64,000 nucleotides of DNA, taken from NCBI RefSeq assembly GCF_001528665.1, contig NZ_BBYJ01000009.1, positions 62,001 through 126,000 of the forward strand. The letters are read 5' to 3'. A program made the position numbers and the translations under genes. A model generated the notes under the pieces. It was not told the DNA's origin and searched no databases. It was given only the letters and a program-made list of their open reading frames with translations. Origin of the DNA: Microtetraspora malaysiensis. Lineage in GTDB: Bacteria > Actinomycetota > Actinomycetes > Streptosporangiales > Streptosporangiaceae. Each line of letters starts with the position of its first letter. The first letter of the stretch is position 1. Positions 44,427 to 50,329 of this stretch are shown here, in pieces.

Positions 44427-44616
44427 GAGCGGACGCGAGCCGTTCGCCGGGACGAGGACCGTCCTGATCATTTCGTTTCGCCGCTCGTCGGACGGGCAAT
44501 TACTGTCCGCAGTCGCTCCGATGCCGGCACCGATCAAACGGGCATCCACTGCGGGACACATCGCGCGACCCGCACCTACGGCGGGAGCTCCGCAACACAG
44601 CAGTCGGGGGAATCAC

Positions 44617-44790
44617 ATGGCCAACGACGCCCTCACGCCATCGGATCCGATCGGCGTCGAGGTGTGGGTTCTGCAGTTCCTGCGCCTCACGGGTGCCTGT
44701 GCGTCCGTACCCGATCAGCGCGTCTACCTGCCCCAGAGCATCGTGCCGCTCCGGCCCGGCTCCCGATCGGAGGAGCCCGCCGCCGAGTGA
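44617..44790 (+). CDS. Small protein of unknown function (57 residues)
   Basis: A 57-codon frame with GGGGG before the ATG and strong G/C preference at third codon positions, as in real genes here. The product (ANDALTPSDPIGVEVWVLQF, then CASVPDQRVYLPQSIVPL, then an acidic tail) has no membrane segment or domain I recognise. The 190 bases upstream include CGGACGGGCAATTACTGTCCG, an imperfect inverted repeat that may belong to its control region. It could be a peptide precursor or a small regulatory protein; I cannot tell. Confidence 0.5.
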   Translation: MANDALTPSDPIGVEVWVLQFLRLTGACASVPDQRVYLPQSIVPLRPGSRSEEPAAE

Positions 44791-44876
44791 CGGCGCGAAG
44801 GTCGCCGATGAGAGGCCGCGCCCAACCGCGGCTAGAGTCGTCGCTTCCTGGAAGATCAAGCGATCAGGAGGCAGTT

Positions 44877-45563
44877 GTGGCGTTCGGCAGGAACCGGAAA
44901 GCCGATGAGCCGCCGGTGGAGCCCGTCGCGTGGACGGAGGCCTGGGAGTTCGTCGTGGGCAAGGTGGAGCGCCCGGAGACGCCCAAGCGCAAGAAGGCGA
45001 GCTGGGGAGCGCACGCGGTGCGGGTTCCCGGCGGAGGGAAGTTCGACAAGGTCCTCGCCCCATGCGCGTACGTCGCCTCCGGGCGGTCCGAGGGGTTGCC
45101 CGCGGCTCCGGGGCTGACCCTCTTCGAGGACGCCGCCCAGCAGCGTCTGCTCTGTTATGTCGCGGCTCCCCAGGAGGTGGACGGGGAGCGCCACCATGTC
45201 GTGCACGACGGGCAGGGCCAGGTCATCGGCACCATTAAGCGGATCCCGCCGAAGCGCCCGTTCCGGCACACCTGGCGGATCGAGCAGCCGGGACATCCGG
45301 AGATCACGGGACGCAACGAGTGGGCGAGTGGCAGCGCCACAGAGATCGCCGGGCTGGCGGCCGTACGGTTGCTGTCCACGGTTGTCGACGGTCTGCTCTC
45401 TCCTGGAGACGGGTCTGATCAGGGTGGGAAACCCCGCTCACTCGAATGGCGGGCGGGCGATGAGGTCGTGATGACCTCGGAGGGGAGCGCCCAGGTCAGG
45501 ATCCGCAAGGAATGGCTGGATCGGCGTCTCGCCTTCGCCTACGCGCTCATCGGGGACGCCTGA
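44877..45563 (+). CDS. Conserved hypothetical protein, possibly tubby/LURP-like fold
   Basis: Protein of 228 residues with GTG start and AGGAGG five bases upstream. A -10-like TAGAGT lies near 44834. No signal peptide. The middle (HHVVHDGQGQVIGTIKRIPPKRPFRHTWRI in parts) and the end (LEWRAGDEVVMTSEG, then KEWLDRRLAFAYALIGD) recall the twelve-stranded scramblase/LURP-one fold in which a final hydrophobic helix fills a beta barrel. This is a weak impression. Otherwise it is unrecognised. Confidence 0.65.
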   Translation: MAFGRNRKADEPPVEPVAWTEAWEFVVGKVERPETPKRKKASWGAHAVRVPGGGKFDKVLAPCAYVASGRSEGLPAAPGLTLFEDAAQQRLLCYVAAPQEVDGERHHVVHDGQGQVIGTIKRIPPKRPFRHTWRIEQPGHPEITGRNEWASGSATEIAGLAAVRLLSTVVDGLLSPGDGSDQGGKPRSLEWRAGDEVVMTSEGSAQVRIRKEWLDRRLAFAYALIGDA

Positions 45564-45717
45564 GGCGCCACGCGACCCCACCGGCGCCGAGGCGGCTCGT
45601 CACCGGGGGCGGAGTGCTCTGTCCCCCGCCGTGCGGAGAGCGGCGACGGCGTGTCGCCGTCGCCGCTCCGACGGCCCGCCTCACGCGGGCCGTTCTACCG
45701 GCCGGAGCCGATCACGA

Positions 45718-46245
45718 TCAGGGTGTCGACTCCTCGGTGCCGCCACCGCCGTGCCCCGGCCACATCGGCCGGCTGAGGTCCGCGACAAACGCGGCGGGGG
45801 CGGATTCGCCCTTTCCGACGGCGACAACGAACGCCTTGTCACCGGTCGCGATCTCGGCCAGCCCATTGCGCCCCGTGGAGACGCGGCTGGAGTCGGTGAC
45901 GGCGTACTTCTGTGCGACGCCGTCCAGGCCCTTGATCTCGATGGAGTTCTGGTCGACCGATGTCACGGTGCCGCTGTGCACGGTGAGGGTCTGCTGGCCG
46001 CCACCCTCCTTCGTGATGGTCAGCTCGCCGCGGATGGAGCCGATCGAGTGGCCGCCGGGCGTCTCCTCGCTCGGAGACAGCGTCGTCCGGGCGGAGGGGG
46101 AGTCGCCGCTGGCCGCGGCGGCCACGCCCGTACCCGTGGCGAGGAGCAGCACGGTGGCGGCTCCGAGAAGGAGTCCGCGACGCGCCGCGCTTCGGGCCGG
46201 TTTGGTGGTGGGGAGGTGGGTTCGGGTGATCTCGAGATCGGTCAT
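45718..46245 (-). CDS. Exported DUF5666-like protein
   Basis: Protein of 175 residues. A 20-residue charged N-terminus precedes one hydrophobic segment (GLLLGAATVLLLATGTGVAAAAS) that may be a signal or anchor. The exported part has SIRGELTITKEGGGQQTL then GTVTSVDQNSIEIKGLDG and a KYAVTDSSRVS/GDKAFVVAVG pattern, the small beta-barrel repeat of DUF5666-type proteins. The function is unknown. The ATG at 46245 has only a weak ribosome site. It is convergent with the gene at 44877. Confidence 0.7.
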   Translation of the reverse strand: MTDLEITRTHLPTTKPARSAARRGLLLGAATVLLLATGTGVAAAASGDSPSARTTLSPSEETPGGHSIGSIRGELTITKEGGGQQTLTVHSGTVTSVDQNSIEIKGLDGVAQKYAVTDSSRVSTGRNGLAEIATGDKAFVVAVGKGESAPAAFVADLSRPMWPGHGGGGTEESTP

Positions 46246-46562
46246 AAGGCTTGGGGCGGAGAACCCCGCCTCAGTGCGCGAGGTGGGGAAGACCGCCCCT
46301 CCTCCTCTCGGGTTCCCGTTGTGCGGTATCCGTCGTTTTCGGGTCCGCACGCGGTGTGGCTGCCCCTCTACCCGGCTGAGGACGATGGTGACGGCCGGGT
46401 CGGTAAAGACCTCGTCGAGGCGGAACCGCCGGAGCGCGAATCAGGCGCTGCAGCGGCGGGAGTCGAAGATGTGCTCATGGCCGGCGCTGTTGAAGGCTGC
46501 CCCAACGCGAGCGGGCCACGTAGGGTGCTCGCGGCACAAGCGCGACAAGGAGCGTGACAGGC
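46246..46562. other. Gap between DUF5666-like and TauE genes
   Basis: 317 bases. A TAGGGT (46521-46526) and AAGGAG (46547-46552) before the TauE start are the only clear signals. I see no RNA gene. If the IS remnant downstream once spanned this region, its left end might lie here, but I could not find one. Confidence 0.35.
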
Positions 46563-47414
46563 GTGGCCCCGGACGACAGCGCTATTCCCGCCCGCGTGGT
46601 GACCTCGCTCCCGCTGGCGTTCACCGCCGGGGCGGCGGTGGGCGCGCTGGGCGGGATGATCGGCCTGGGCGGTGCGGAGTTCCGGCTGCCGCTGCTGATC
46701 GGCCTGTTCGGATTCGCCGCGCTGGCCGCGGTCATCTTGAACAAAGCGATGAGCCTGATCGTGGTGCTCACCGCCTTGCCCGCTCGCCTGGCCACTGTCC
46801 CGCCGGCCGATTTGGGCGCGCATTGGACGGTCGTGGTCAACCTGCTGGCCGGCAGCCTGCTGGGGGCCTGGGCCGGTGCCTCATGGGCGGTGCGGATGCG
46901 CGGCGCGACCTTGTACAAGGTGCTGGCGGCCCTGATGGTGCTCATGGCCGCCGCGCTGGTGCTCACCCACACCGCCACCGTGGGTGCCCTGCCCCTGCCC
47001 GGTCCCGTGCGGGCCGTCGCCGGAGTGGCGGCCGGGTTCGGCATCGGAGTGGTGGCGGCGATCATGGGAGTCGCCGGCGGGGAACTGCTGATCCCCACGA
47101 TCGTGCTGCTGTACGCCATCGACATCAAGGTCGCCGGCAGCCTGTCCCTGCTGGTGTCCCTGCCCACCATGCTGGTGGCCTTCGCCCGTTACAGCCGAGA
47201 CGGCAGCTTCGCCGTCCTGCGCTCCAACCTGCGTTTCACCGTCACCATGGTCGCCGGTTCCATCGCCGGGGCTCTGCTGGGCGGCCTGCTGCTTGGCGTG
47301 ATCCCTGACAGGGTGCTGATCCCCGCTCTCGCCGTCATCCTGCTGATCTCAGCGGCCAAGCTGGCCCGCCACGCTCCTCCGGACGCGAGACAGGCCGGCT
47401 TGCCGGACAACTGA
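46563..47414 (+). CDS. TauE/SafE-family anion permease
   Basis: Membrane transporter of 283 residues with eight to nine hydrophobic segments in two inverted halves. Signature stretches are GGMIGLGGAEFRLPLLIGLF in the first half and AAIMGVAGGELLIPTIVLLY in the second, the paired Gly-rich motifs of TauE/SafE. Members export sulphite, sulphoacetate or related organic anions. The substrate is unknown. The GTG at 46563 is ten bases after AAGGAG; another GTG at 46554 is too close to it. A hairpin terminator and then an IS remnant follow. Confidence 0.88.
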   Translation: MAPDDSAIPARVVTSLPLAFTAGAAVGALGGMIGLGGAEFRLPLLIGLFGFAALAAVILNKAMSLIVVLTALPARLATVPPADLGAHWTVVVNLLAGSLLGAWAGASWAVRMRGATLYKVLAALMVLMAAALVLTHTATVGALPLPGPVRAVAGVAAGFGIGVVAAIMGVAGGELLIPTIVLLYAIDIKVAGSLSLLVSLPTMLVAFARYSRDGSFAVLRSNLRFTVTMVAGSIAGALLGGLLLGVIPDRVLIPALAVILLISAAKLARHAPPDARQAGLPDN

Positions 47415-47425
47415 GGGCAGAACAC

Positions 47426-47450
47426 CTTGTCCGCCGGGCCGGCGGACAAG
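47426..47450 (+). terminator. Terminator after the TauE gene
   Basis: CTTGTCCGCC (47426-47435) pairs perfectly with GGCGGACAAG (47441-47450) around GGGCC, followed by TAAAA. It ends three bases before the TnpB remnant begins. Confidence 0.65.
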
Positions 47451-47453
47451 TAA

Positions 47454-47531
47454 AACGCCTGTGGAGCTGGGGTAGGACCTCAACGAGAGTTCTCTCGGAC
47501 GGGGCGCCCGGCGGTGAAGCGGGAAGCCTGA
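47454..47531 (+). pseudogene. C-terminal fragment of a TnpB (OrfB) RNA-guided nuclease
   Basis: Twenty-five codons and a stop read NACGAGVGPQ..., ending AVKREA. This is the typical tail of actinobacterial TnpB proteins (NACG, a short basic stretch, then a K-R/Q-E ending). The codon before it is a stop that belongs to the TauE terminator region, so the rest of tnpB was lost by deletion. Confidence 0.6.
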
Positions 47532-47578
47532 CCGGTGACGGTGGGAATCCCCCTCGTTTACGAGGGGGAGGATGTCAA
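47454..47578 (+). mobile_element. Right-end remnant of an IS200/IS605-family element
   Basis: The stretch has the typical order of such right ends: the last codons of tnpB, then GTGGGAAT, a hairpin CCCCCTCG-TTTA-CGAGGGGG (47549-47556 with 47561-47568), then GAGGATGTCAA with the cleavage-type tetranucleotide TCAA at 47575-47578. A second small hairpin CGAGA-GTTC-TCTCG lies at 47484-47497. In intact elements this segment is also the scaffold of the TnpB guide RNA. The left end, tnpA and most of tnpB are absent. The junction is 24 bases before the helY -10 box. Confidence 0.7.
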
Positions 47579-47601
47579 TCGGCCTTTCCTCCAGGGATCT
47601 G

Positions 47602-47607
47602 TAGGGT
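47602..47607 (+). promoter_or_regulatory. -10 box of helY
   Basis: TAGGGT ends seven bases before the helY ATG, giving a leaderless transcript. A -35 at the usual distance would fall at 47578-47584, right at the end of the IS remnant. Confidence 0.5.
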
Positions 47608-47614
47608 TGGACCC

Positions 47615-50329
47615 ATGAGCACGCCGGCGGAACGCTACGCCGCCTTCCGTGAGCAGCAGGCCGGTAGCGGGCCCGCCCTCACCTCGTTCCGGGGTCTGTA
47701 CGACTTCGCGCTCGACGAGTTCCAGATCGACGCCTGCGAGGCGCTGGAGGCCGGAGACGGCGTCCTGGTCGCCGCCCCCACCGGGTCGGGCAAGACGGTT
47801 GTCGGGGAGTTCGCCGTCCACCTCGCTCTTGAGCAGGGGCGCAAATGTTTCTACACCACCCCCATCAAGGCGCTGTCGAACCAGAAGTACAACGACCTCG
47901 TCCGCCGGTACGGCGCGGCCAAGGTGGGCCTGCTCACCGGGGACAACAGCGTCAACGGCGAGGCCCCGATCGTCGTCATGACCACCGAGGTCCTGCGCAA
48001 CATGCTGTACGCCGGGTCCGGCACGCTCGCCGGGCTCGGCTACGTCGTGATGGACGAGGTGCACTACCTCGCTGACCGGTTCCGCGGCGCGGTGTGGGAA
48101 GAGGTGATCATCCACCTGCCCGAGTCGGTGCGGGTGGCCGCGCTCTCCGCCACGGTCAGCAACGCCGAGGAGTTCGGCGAGTGGCTCGGCGAGGTCCGCG
48201 GCGAGACCACCGTCATCGTGGACGAGCACCGCCCGGTGCCGCTGTGGCAGCACATGCTGGTCGGCAACCGCCTGTACGACCTGTTCGCCAACGAGAGCGA
48301 CGGCGTGCTGCGGATCAACCCCAACCTGATGCGGATCTCCCGCGACGAGGTGCGGGAGGCCCAGGCCCGGGGACGGCGCGGCTACTCCCGGCCGCGGCGC
48401 GGTCCCGCCGCGAACCGGCCCGGCGTCATCGAGAAGCTCGACACGGAGGGGCTGCTGCCCGCGATCACGTTCATCTTCTCCCGCGCGGGGTGCGACAGCG
48501 CCGTGATGCAGTGCCTGTACGCGGGCCTGCGGCTGACCACGGAGAAGGAACGGCACGAGATCCGGCAGATCGTCGACGAGCGCACCGCGCACCTGCCGGA
48601 CGAGGACCTGGCCGTCCTGGGCTACCTGGAGTGGCGCGAGTGCCTGGAACGCGGGCTCGCCGCCCACCACGCGGGGATGCTGCCCGCGTTCAAGGAGGTC
48701 GTCGAGGAGCTGTTCACCAAGGGGCTGGTCAAGGCTGTGTTCGCCACCGAGACCCTGGCGCTGGGCATCAACATGCCCGCCCGCTCGGTGGTGATCGAGA
48801 AGCTCGACAAGTGGAACGGTGAGACCCACGCCGACCTCACGCCGGGGGAGTACACCCAGCTGACCGGCCGGGCCGGGCGGCGGGGGATCGACGTCGAGGG
48901 CCACGCGGTCGTGGTGTGGCAGCCGGGCATGGACCCGGTCTCCGTGGCCGGGCTCGCCAGCACCCGCACGTACCCGCTGCGCTCCAGCTTCCGTCCGTCG
49001 TACAACATGGCGGTCAACCTGGTCGGGCAGGTCGGCCGGGTCCGGGCTCGCGCGCTGTTGGAGGACTCCTTCGCGCAGTTCCAGGCCGACCGGGCGGTCG
49101 TCGGACTGGCCCGCCAGCTCCGCAAGTCCGAGCAGGCCCTGGAGGGCTACACCGAGGCCATGACCTGCCACCTCGGCGACTTCCCGGAGTACGCGGCGCT
49201 GCGCAGGCGGCTGTCGGACCGCGAGTCCGAGCTGGCCCGCCAGCGCGGGGCCGCCCGCAGGGCCGAGGCCGCACGGTCCCTGGAGGAGCTGAAGCCCGGC
49301 GACGTCATCCGGGTCCCCGGTGGGCGGCGGGCCGGGCTGGCGGTGATCCTCGACCCTGGCGTGAAGGTCAGGGGAGAGGGACCGTCCCCGCTCGTGCTCA
49401 CCGCGGGCAAGCAGGTGAAGCGGCTGTCCCCGGCCGACTTCCCGGTGCCGGTGGAACCGGTCGAGCGCATCAGGATCCCCAAGGGCTTCAACGCCCGCAC
49501 CCCCAAGGATCGGGCCAACCTCGTCTCCACCATGCACGCCAAGGTCGGCGATCGCGACCTGGGCAAGCCGCCGCGCGCCAGGGACCACGTCACCGAGGAC
49601 GAGGAGATCCTGCGGCTGCGCCGGCAGCTCCGGCAGCACCCCTGCCACGGCTGCGACGAGCGCGAGGACCACGCCCGCTGGGCCGAGCGGTACCACAAGC
49701 TGCTGCGCGAGACCGAAGGGCTGCGCCGCCGGGTGGAGGGGCGCTCGCACGTCATCGCCCGGACCTTCGACCGGGTCTGCGGCGTGCTCGACCAGCTCGG
49801 CTACCTGGAGGAGGAGAACGTCACGCAGGAGGGGCGGCGGCTGGCCAAGCTCTACACCGAGCTGGACCTGCTCACCGCCGAGTGCCTGCGCGCGGGGCTG
49901 TGGGACCGGCTGGACCCGGCCGAGCTGGCCGCCTGCGTGTCGTCGCTGATCTACGAGTCGCGGCAGTCGGACGAGGCTCGCAACCCGCGCATCCCGGCCG
50001 GGCCGGCCCAGGAGGCGCTGGCGGCCATGATCCGGCTGTGGGGCGAGCTGGAGTCCATCGAGGAGGACCACGGGCTCTCCTTCACCAAGGAGCCCGATCT
50101 CGGGTTCGTCTGGACGGCGTTCCGCTGGGCCAAGGGGCACAGCCTCGACGCCGTGCTCACCGACGGCGATCTCGCGGCCGGCGACCTGGTCCGCTGGATG
50201 AAGCAGCTCCTCGACCTGCTCGGCCAGCTCAGAGATGCCGCGCCGGTCGGGAGCAAGGTCAAGGAGAACGCCGACAAGGCCATCGACGCGCTGCGTCGCG
50301 GGGTCGTCGCGTACTCCTCCGTCGGCTGA
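47615..50329 (+). CDS. helY: DEAD/DEVH-box RNA helicase HelY (Ski2/Mtr4-like)
   Basis: Superfamily 2 helicase of 904 residues. Motif I is APTGSGKT (near residue 53), motif Ia TTPIKALSNQKYNDL, motif II DEVH, motif III ALSATVSNAEEF, motif V TETLALGINMPAR and motif VI QLTGRAGRRGID. A KOW-like arch region and a long C-terminal helical domain follow, as in Mtr4/Ski2. It probably unwinds structured RNA for turnover. In actinobacteria it is usually next to tatC. The start agrees with the leaderless promoter. A hairpin terminator follows. Confidence 0.95.
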   Translation: MSTPAERYAAFREQQAGSGPALTSFRGLYDFALDEFQIDACEALEAGDGVLVAAPTGSGKTVVGEFAVHLALEQGRKCFYTTPIKALSNQKYNDLVRRYGAAKVGLLTGDNSVNGEAPIVVMTTEVLRNMLYAGSGTLAGLGYVVMDEVHYLADRFRGAVWEEVIIHLPESVRVAALSATVSNAEEFGEWLGEVRGETTVIVDEHRPVPLWQHMLVGNRLYDLFANESDGVLRINPNLMRISRDEVREAQARGRRGYSRPRRGPAANRPGVIEKLDTEGLLPAITFIFSRAGCDSAVMQCLYAGLRLTTEKERHEIRQIVDERTAHLPDEDLAVLGYLEWRECLERGLAAHHAGMLPAFKEVVEELFTKGLVKAVFATETLALGINMPARSVVIEKLDKWNGETHADLTPGEYTQLTGRAGRRGIDVEGHAVVVWQPGMDPVSVAGLASTRTYPLRSSFRPSYNMAVNLVGQVGRVRARALLEDSFAQFQADRAVVGLARQLRKSEQALEGYTEAMTCHLGDFPEYAALRRRLSDRESELARQRGAARRAEAARSLEELKPGDVIRVPGGRRAGLAVILDPGVKVRGEGPSPLVLTAGKQVKRLSPADFPVPVEPVERIRIPKGFNARTPKDRANLVSTMHAKVGDRDLGKPPRARDHVTEDEEILRLRRQLRQHPCHGCDEREDHARWAERYHKLLRETEGLRRRVEGRSHVIARTFDRVCGVLDQLGYLEEENVTQEGRRLAKLYTELDLLTAECLRAGLWDRLDPAELAACVSSLIYESRQSDEARNPRIPAGPAQEALAAMIRLWGELESIEEDHGLSFTKEPDLGFVWTAFRWAKGHSLDAVLTDGDLAAGDLVRWMKQLLDLLGQLRDAAPVGSKVKENADKAIDALRRGVVAYSSVG

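Follow-up and report, generated by a model that had tools for sequence, protein, structure and literature searches.

A scaffold-keeping right-end remnant of a TnpB-only IS200/IS605-type element between tauE and helY in Microtetraspora malaysiensis

By sequence comparison, the 161 bp at positions 47418-47578 of the window (the whole 64,000-nucleotide stretch of DNA that was analysed, whose numbering is used throughout) are the right-end remnant of a TnpB-only IS200/IS605-type element, and the subfamily from which it came is still resident in the same genome. The remnant is located between tauE and helY on contig 9 of the 8.82-Mb genome (G000) and is composed of 11 tnpB codons with their stop (47418-47453), followed by the omega-RNA scaffold up to 47578. 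The explanation which best accounts for the data as a whole, and to which we assign a probability of about 0.87, is a right-end remnant that kept its scaffold after an inferred insertion and a later deletion, most likely a relic today, with occasional use of its RNA in trans being possible. The features of the region are the following:

46554-47414, plus strand: tauE/safE-type exporter gene (PF01925), adjoining the remnant, without sign of being cargo
47418-47453, plus strand: last 11 codons (QNTLSAGPADK) and TAA stop (47451-47453) of the lost tnpB, from alignment with the copies L004 and L005
47426-47450, plus strand: helix 1, a perfect 11-bp palindrome that overlaps the tnpB tail and lies 11 nt past the tauE stop (alignment and fold)
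47458-47523, plus strand: helices 2 to 5, the scaffold centre; 3 and 5 covary; changes in 2 and 4 are one-sided or absent
47476-47478, plus strand: GAC, candidate pseudoknot partner of GTC at 47574-47576 (-103 to -101 with -5 to -3), proposed by analogy with ISDra2
47529-47544, plus strand: helix 6, a hairpin with both-side changes in 5 of 6 pairs
47549-47568, plus strand: helix 7, the subterminal right-end hairpin CCCCCTCG-TTTA-CGAGGGGG (sequence and pair test)
47569-47578, plus strand: right-end terminus AGGATGTCAA; scaffold/guide boundary after 47578, since past GTCAA 75 of 80 related copies lose similarity
47579-47594, plus strand: guide position of 16 nt (TCGGCCTTTCCTCCAG), the first bases past the boundary
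47583-47592, minus strand: possible displaced Shine-Dalgarno GGAGGAAAGG, left by a gene since lost whose start codon would have been the insertion site
47602-47607, plus strand: TAGGGT, a putative -10-like box before helY
47615-50329, plus strand: helY, DEAD/DSHCT helicase (domain matches)

Identity and extent of the remnant

A 181-base query matched the genome at two other places (E 1.7e-44 and 3.4e-41), which excludes chance likeness. These are two TnpB elements, L004 on contig 22 and L005 on contig 15, both with an intact TnpB, 87-89% identical to the remnant over its length and, across about 1.4 kb, sharing 94.7% identity between themselves; a search for TnpB genes and for copies with the same right end, as suggested in a preliminary description of this DNA, thus recovers both. 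Their TnpBs have 368 amino acids each, counted from an ATG chosen in the analysis, and carry OrfB_IS605, TNB and HTH domains (PF01385/PF07282). Over residues 6-364 the resident TnpB matches the structures 8h1j and 8bf8, presumably ISDra2 TnpB, with an E value of 2e-67. The L004 protein, the one so aligned among the six TnpBs of the genome, runs along the nuclease 9yyg through VDAG, VIEDL and HDRD, which we take to be the catalytic motifs of the TnpB nuclease; this speaks for an active partner rather than a RuvC-inactivated one of the TldR type.

When GTDB genomes were scanned with the L004 TnpB as query, the best 80 of 559 loci were kept. All of these 80 match 47418-47578 in part (E 1.1e-13 or better), and in 75 the match reaches the last base of the remnant, the remaining 5 being partial. 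As the sequences differ after GTCAA, the boundary between element and guide is placed there, by the same criterion as that given in the available part of PMC10278001. In an omega-RNA tree of 66 selected rows the remnant groups with L004, L005 and L076 (support 100/95).

An orphan TnpB right end with an omega-RNA scaffold upstream of helY and a guide position from 47579 had been proposed in the preliminary description. The two genomic and the 80 GTDB homologues (best 80 of 559), which also answer its call for related elements in relatives, and a covarying fold bear out the first point; the divergence after 47578 in 75 of these 80 loci agrees with the second. Its hairpin, GAGGATGTCAA and the right boundary at 47578 were all found as described, so that both the subterminal hairpin and the sharp boundary to a variable guide are present. 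Of the proposed extent, 47454-47578, the right edge stands and the left edge does not, the matching stretch starting at about 47418. The tail codons read there (NACGAGVGPQ...AVKREA) lie past the tnpB stop and are non-coding omega-RNA in this copy. The nuclease gene is indeed lost, with 11 codons left and no TNB-domain match inside the window; on contig 9 there is one such match, at 262612, outside it. No TnpA (Y1) is present in the element, the three Y1 matches of the genome being on contigs 14, 25 and 28, and an Rfam search of the window at gathering thresholds returned 0 matches.

A profile of the left end gave no significant match in the window (best E 0.14), while the same search detected L005 (E 2.5e-17), L076 (E 2.7e-14) and L004 (E 9.2e-11). 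With its left end missing, the remnant does not show the layout of a PATE or mini-element, in which both ends surround a short nuclease-free interior. The left end formerly placed near 46.2-46.5 kb was not found and is rejected, since the profile was not significant and the candidate at 46256 (E 7.1) is sequence common to the near relative G137. The same region matters for the reading of tauE as cargo, that is an IS605-type unit in which tauE replaces tnpB, for which size and orientation would be fitting and a hairpin is present at about 46.26 kb. However, neither the best left-end match of the window nor the 46256 candidate is significant, the 8.5 kb of G137 which run up to helY show no right-end motif, and the motif is likewise absent from the flanks of 19 other fetched tauE loci, the remnant being the only case among 20. 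As tauE is also sporadic (matched at E 1e-30 in 17 of 250 genomes, this one included), we rejected this reading as extremely improbable.

Fold of the omega-RNA and its drift

The conserved secondary structure predicted for the 3' omega-RNA scaffold is present in the remnant. RNAalifold gave 47 pairs for 78 tails, of which the remnant forms 46 and L004 and L005 45 each (range 35-47). Covariation was tested on 43 named pairs in a 52-row alignment selected from these tails: pairing is found in 94.6% of the cells, 25 pairs show changes on both sides, and the covariation score is 0.306 versus 0.141 in shuffles. None of 500 shuffles was as high on any of five measures, and the signal disappeared when the partners were slid; kinship of the rows inflates such tests, the counts of pairs and types least so. 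The remnant keeps 42 of the 43 tested pairs, the sole failing one being 47530/47543 (G/G) in helix 6. In a genome search with the covariance model R1 the remnant scored 175.7 bits, L004 172.4, L005 165 and the next match 32.6 or less; since all three copies are among the training rows, these scores compare copies and do not validate the model. Folded alone, the remnant has a z of -2.17, with 4 of 200 shuffles equally good. The columns of GAC and GTC are almost invariant (middle pair T/A in 115 of 122 rows), and covariation is therefore unable to test the candidate pseudoknot.

According to the available parts of PMC8612924 and PMC10097598, the omega-RNA (reRNA) of ISDra2 derives from the 3' end of tnpB plus the right end, with the guide outside the element, and its 116-nt scaffold has a pseudoknot of -5 to -3 with -105 to -103 (PMC10097598). 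The remnant resembles this RNA in layout and, as far as its candidate pseudoknot goes, in a pairing that lies about 100 nt before the guide (PMC10097598). It differs by having neither nuclease gene nor left end, and its family inserts at TCAT whereas ISDra2 uses TTGAT (PMC8612924, PMC10097598). For AmaTnpB, the accessible text of PMC10278001 gives the TAM TCAC and a processed scaffold of 106 nt; the likeness to the remnant, drawn without a comparison of the scaffolds, is that the right-end boundary ends the scaffold and that the TAM is similar in form.

Drift was followed from an ancestor approximated from seven close copies, on a pairing scheme derived with the remnant among its rows. The remnant has 11 private substitutions, 6 of them at paired positions, which broke no pair (from 42 to 43 of 44). 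In simulations of 20,000 runs each, placing the substitutions at random reached this number of pairs in 0.8% of runs over all sites and in 0.3% when confined to paired sites. Among the private events is a joint replacement of both partners at 47471/47507, which turned T:A into G:C. All four differences from its nearest copy L076 in the tnpB tail are non-synonymous (K-Q, I-T, A-S, L-P). Unbroken pairs together with a tail that differs only by amino acid replacements make it seem that the coding constraint was relaxed and pairing retained; a share predating the loss of tnpB may be part of this.

The same observations (P 0.003-0.008 in the simulation, the double change, the altered tail codons), together with two partner TnpBs in the genome, are what would be expected of a living orphan guide RNA, transcribed with tauE, bound in trans by a resident TnpB and kept by selection. 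But the private branch may partly predate the loss of tnpB, the approximated ancestor and the structure built with the remnant among the rows weaken the simulation, G:C at 47471/47507 is shared by 6 distant rows, and the genome offers no second target for the guide, whose 20-mer from 47579 occurs once with up to 3 mismatches. We hold such a living RNA to be rather unlikely.

A further reading starts from helix 1. T 47430 is found in the remnant alone among 122 rows and pairs with A 47446, thereby completing the palindrome, while the other rows have G/A (102), G/C (10) or G/T (9) at these positions. A perfect palindrome so close behind tauE might, with the rest of the tail, now merely terminate or stabilise the tauE mRNA. 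Against this there is no U-tract, a terminator scan finds no terminator, and the intact distal helices are left unexplained, so that we consider this role unlikely, slightly more so than the living guide RNA.

Insertion sites and nuclease-free relatives

In a survey of 89 elements of the family (82 full, 7 mini) the left-end pattern stands directly after TCAT, which is ATGA on the opposite strand, in 76; the 13 misses include L004 and L076. In 49 of 73 testable elements versus 106 of 606 control sites, the site reads as a start-like codon whose gene points away from the element, the calls being made by codon-position G+C and the controls being other TCAT sites in the same flanks. Beyond the right end a Shine-Dalgarno-like motif was present in 38/73 elements and 89/606 controls, and codon and motif occurred together in 33/73 and 20/606. 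Ten adjoining genes encode recognisable proteins, among them a biotin carboxylase and an alanine dehydrogenase, and in four of the ten the domain starts at residue 3-5; these were chosen by eye (10 of 12 placed) and illustrate rather than estimate. Taken together, the comparison suggests host start codons as the habitual site of this family. A Shine-Dalgarno-like motif in the left end reads into the adjoining host gene in L005 and most of L077-L155. A count of 71/73 for left ends supplying a Shine-Dalgarno was discarded as circular, since the pattern itself required such a motif or TTCTGGCG.

Upstream of tnpB, 43 of the 82 full copies carry a box matching at least 9 of 12 positions of the TCGAAC-N4-GTTCGA type, which we take to be LexA-like, versus 45 of 1640 mononucleotide shuffles. 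In 37 of the 43 it lies 45-49 nt upstream (copies from L076-L155, L004 and L005), hinting at SOS control of tnpB.

Seventy right ends were examined with their upstream DNA, 30 being loci returned by the omega-RNA search and 40 fetched from its list, among the matches listed. Twenty of them have no full TnpB, including the remnant and L222, which ends at a contig edge; as the omega-RNA was the query, its retention in these 20 follows from the search. Partial tnpB genes with a kept omega-RNA end were seen in L171, L181, L207, L210, L214 and L224. Related sequences also occur in the plasmid collection, where 12 of 13 records are 60-80% identical and the remaining one 90-95%, and in the phage collection (1 record at 76%).

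Seven of the nuclease-free right ends share a left end and a spacer-like interior. Searching with the spacer alone, at most three candidates being scored per genome, found it in 13/250 family genomes and 4/68 genera, and nowhere in this genome. An omega-RNA follows the spacer at all 23 mini-element loci (L234-L256; 94-180 bits), and TnpB was detected at none of the 23 at E 1e-5. The left-end pattern follows TCAT in 18 of the 23, and 19 have a recognisable right terminus; the 15 that could be measured are 278-346 bp long. Their RNAs covary (24 rows including the remnant: 95.0% paired, 21 pairs changed on both sides, 0/500 shuffles), of which ancestry shared with full copies may explain part. 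On the RNA tree the mini-elements are scattered, with 8 label changes of which at least 5 are forced. Their RNAs match full copies of the same genome in 3 of 8 testable cases (of 23; permutation P 0.04), all three from one genome and too few to use. These data suggest that guide-RNA-only mini-elements with conserved folds exist in other genera.

The remnant could in principle come from such a mini-element (left end, short spacer, omega-RNA, right end) whose left end was lost later, and its tnpB and that of the mini-elements indeed break at positions that agree to about one codon. The spacer search of this genome nevertheless gave 0 matches, the spacer profile was not significant in the window, the anchored comparison of upstream bases was weak (best 35/1500 among 8 tries), and the tree places the remnant with the full copies and apart from the mini-elements. 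This descent, supported by none of these analyses, was rejected and is very unlikely. In the available text of PMC7290912, a PATE-like element of Halanaerobium keeps the last 58 tnpB bases and the entire 160-base right end; it resembles the remnant as a short derivative with a whole right end, and differs in that it keeps the left-end hairpin. Short derivatives keeping the whole right end are thus already published, as far as this source goes (PMC7290912), and the remnant adds another one.

Proposed history and meaning of the remnant

The region before helY was searched in 250 family genomes, 249 of which matched, with two candidates scored for each. Among the matches listed no foreign helY match starts before query base 288, and to that extent the insertion would be private to this lineage. 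Homology to the four near relatives G137, G095, G117 and G060, all under one common genus label, resumes at 47582, 3 bp past the element end, and nothing in these four matches 46451-47581. Further to the left, 45240-45611 is matched in G060 and 44442-46450 in G137. The stretch before helY (44442-47581) is variable, the distance from the last shared left-hand sequence to helY being about 250 bp in G060 and about 5.8 kb in G137. In 9 relatives the box before helY is TAGGGT (6) or else TAGTGT or TAGGCT (3); a consensus scan of 46400-47700, of a kind poorly suited to actinomycetes, found no promoter-like site.

Within the preferred reading, that of a right-end remnant, the insertion would have taken place beside helY and hit a minus-strand gene at its start codon, so that the Shine-Dalgarno of that gene would now lie within the guide position. 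We infer this from the right flank, which passes the same Shine-Dalgarno test as 38/73 elements and 89/606 control sites, and from the habit of the family. Proof of such an insertion is hindered by the missing left end, by L004, whose own left flank lacks TCAT, and by the near relatives, in which no matching gene was found at the site. The loss of the minus-strand gene together with the left end and tnpB would be due to a later deletion or rearrangement, through which tauE came to adjoin the tail. Since the left end is absent, the remnant should not move; most likely it is an immobile relic that forms the 3' tail of tauE, with its guide before helY.

Read-through from tauE would make this tail a 3'-UTR omega-RNA, which the two resident TnpBs could trim and load. 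In the available part of PMC10278001, a TnpB from a different species is described as trimming the 5' side of its own transcript. Use of the remnant RNA in trans by the sister TnpBs would be plausible. The one genomic match of the guide is its own locus. There GTCAA, rather than TCAT, stands before it, so that no cutting at home is expected; the guide would act solely on an empty allele of the remnant site.

A wider view would unite the remnant with a Streptosporangiaceae class of nuclease-free omega-RNA loci, kept by RNA-level selection through TnpBs serving in trans, whose mobile form would be a guide-RNA-only mini-transposon, in a family that parks at host start codons, where its left end would equip the gene with a new Shine-Dalgarno. 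As a joint claim this is tentative and stays on the doubtful side. The titles and abstract openings searched, mostly outside the subscription literature, contain no description of start-codon parking, of SOS-controlled tnpB or of this mini-element spacer family.

Taken alone, the remnant is a well-preserved transposon relic. It is also a clean test case for the use by TnpB of guide RNAs encoded away from its own gene, because the tail no longer stands with its nuclease, the genome has partner genes, and the base at which the RNA should end is known. Its relatives offer two ideas that can be tested: mini-elements that would consist of a guide RNA only, and a transposon that may be tolerated because it inserts at start codons and supplies the ribosome-binding site.
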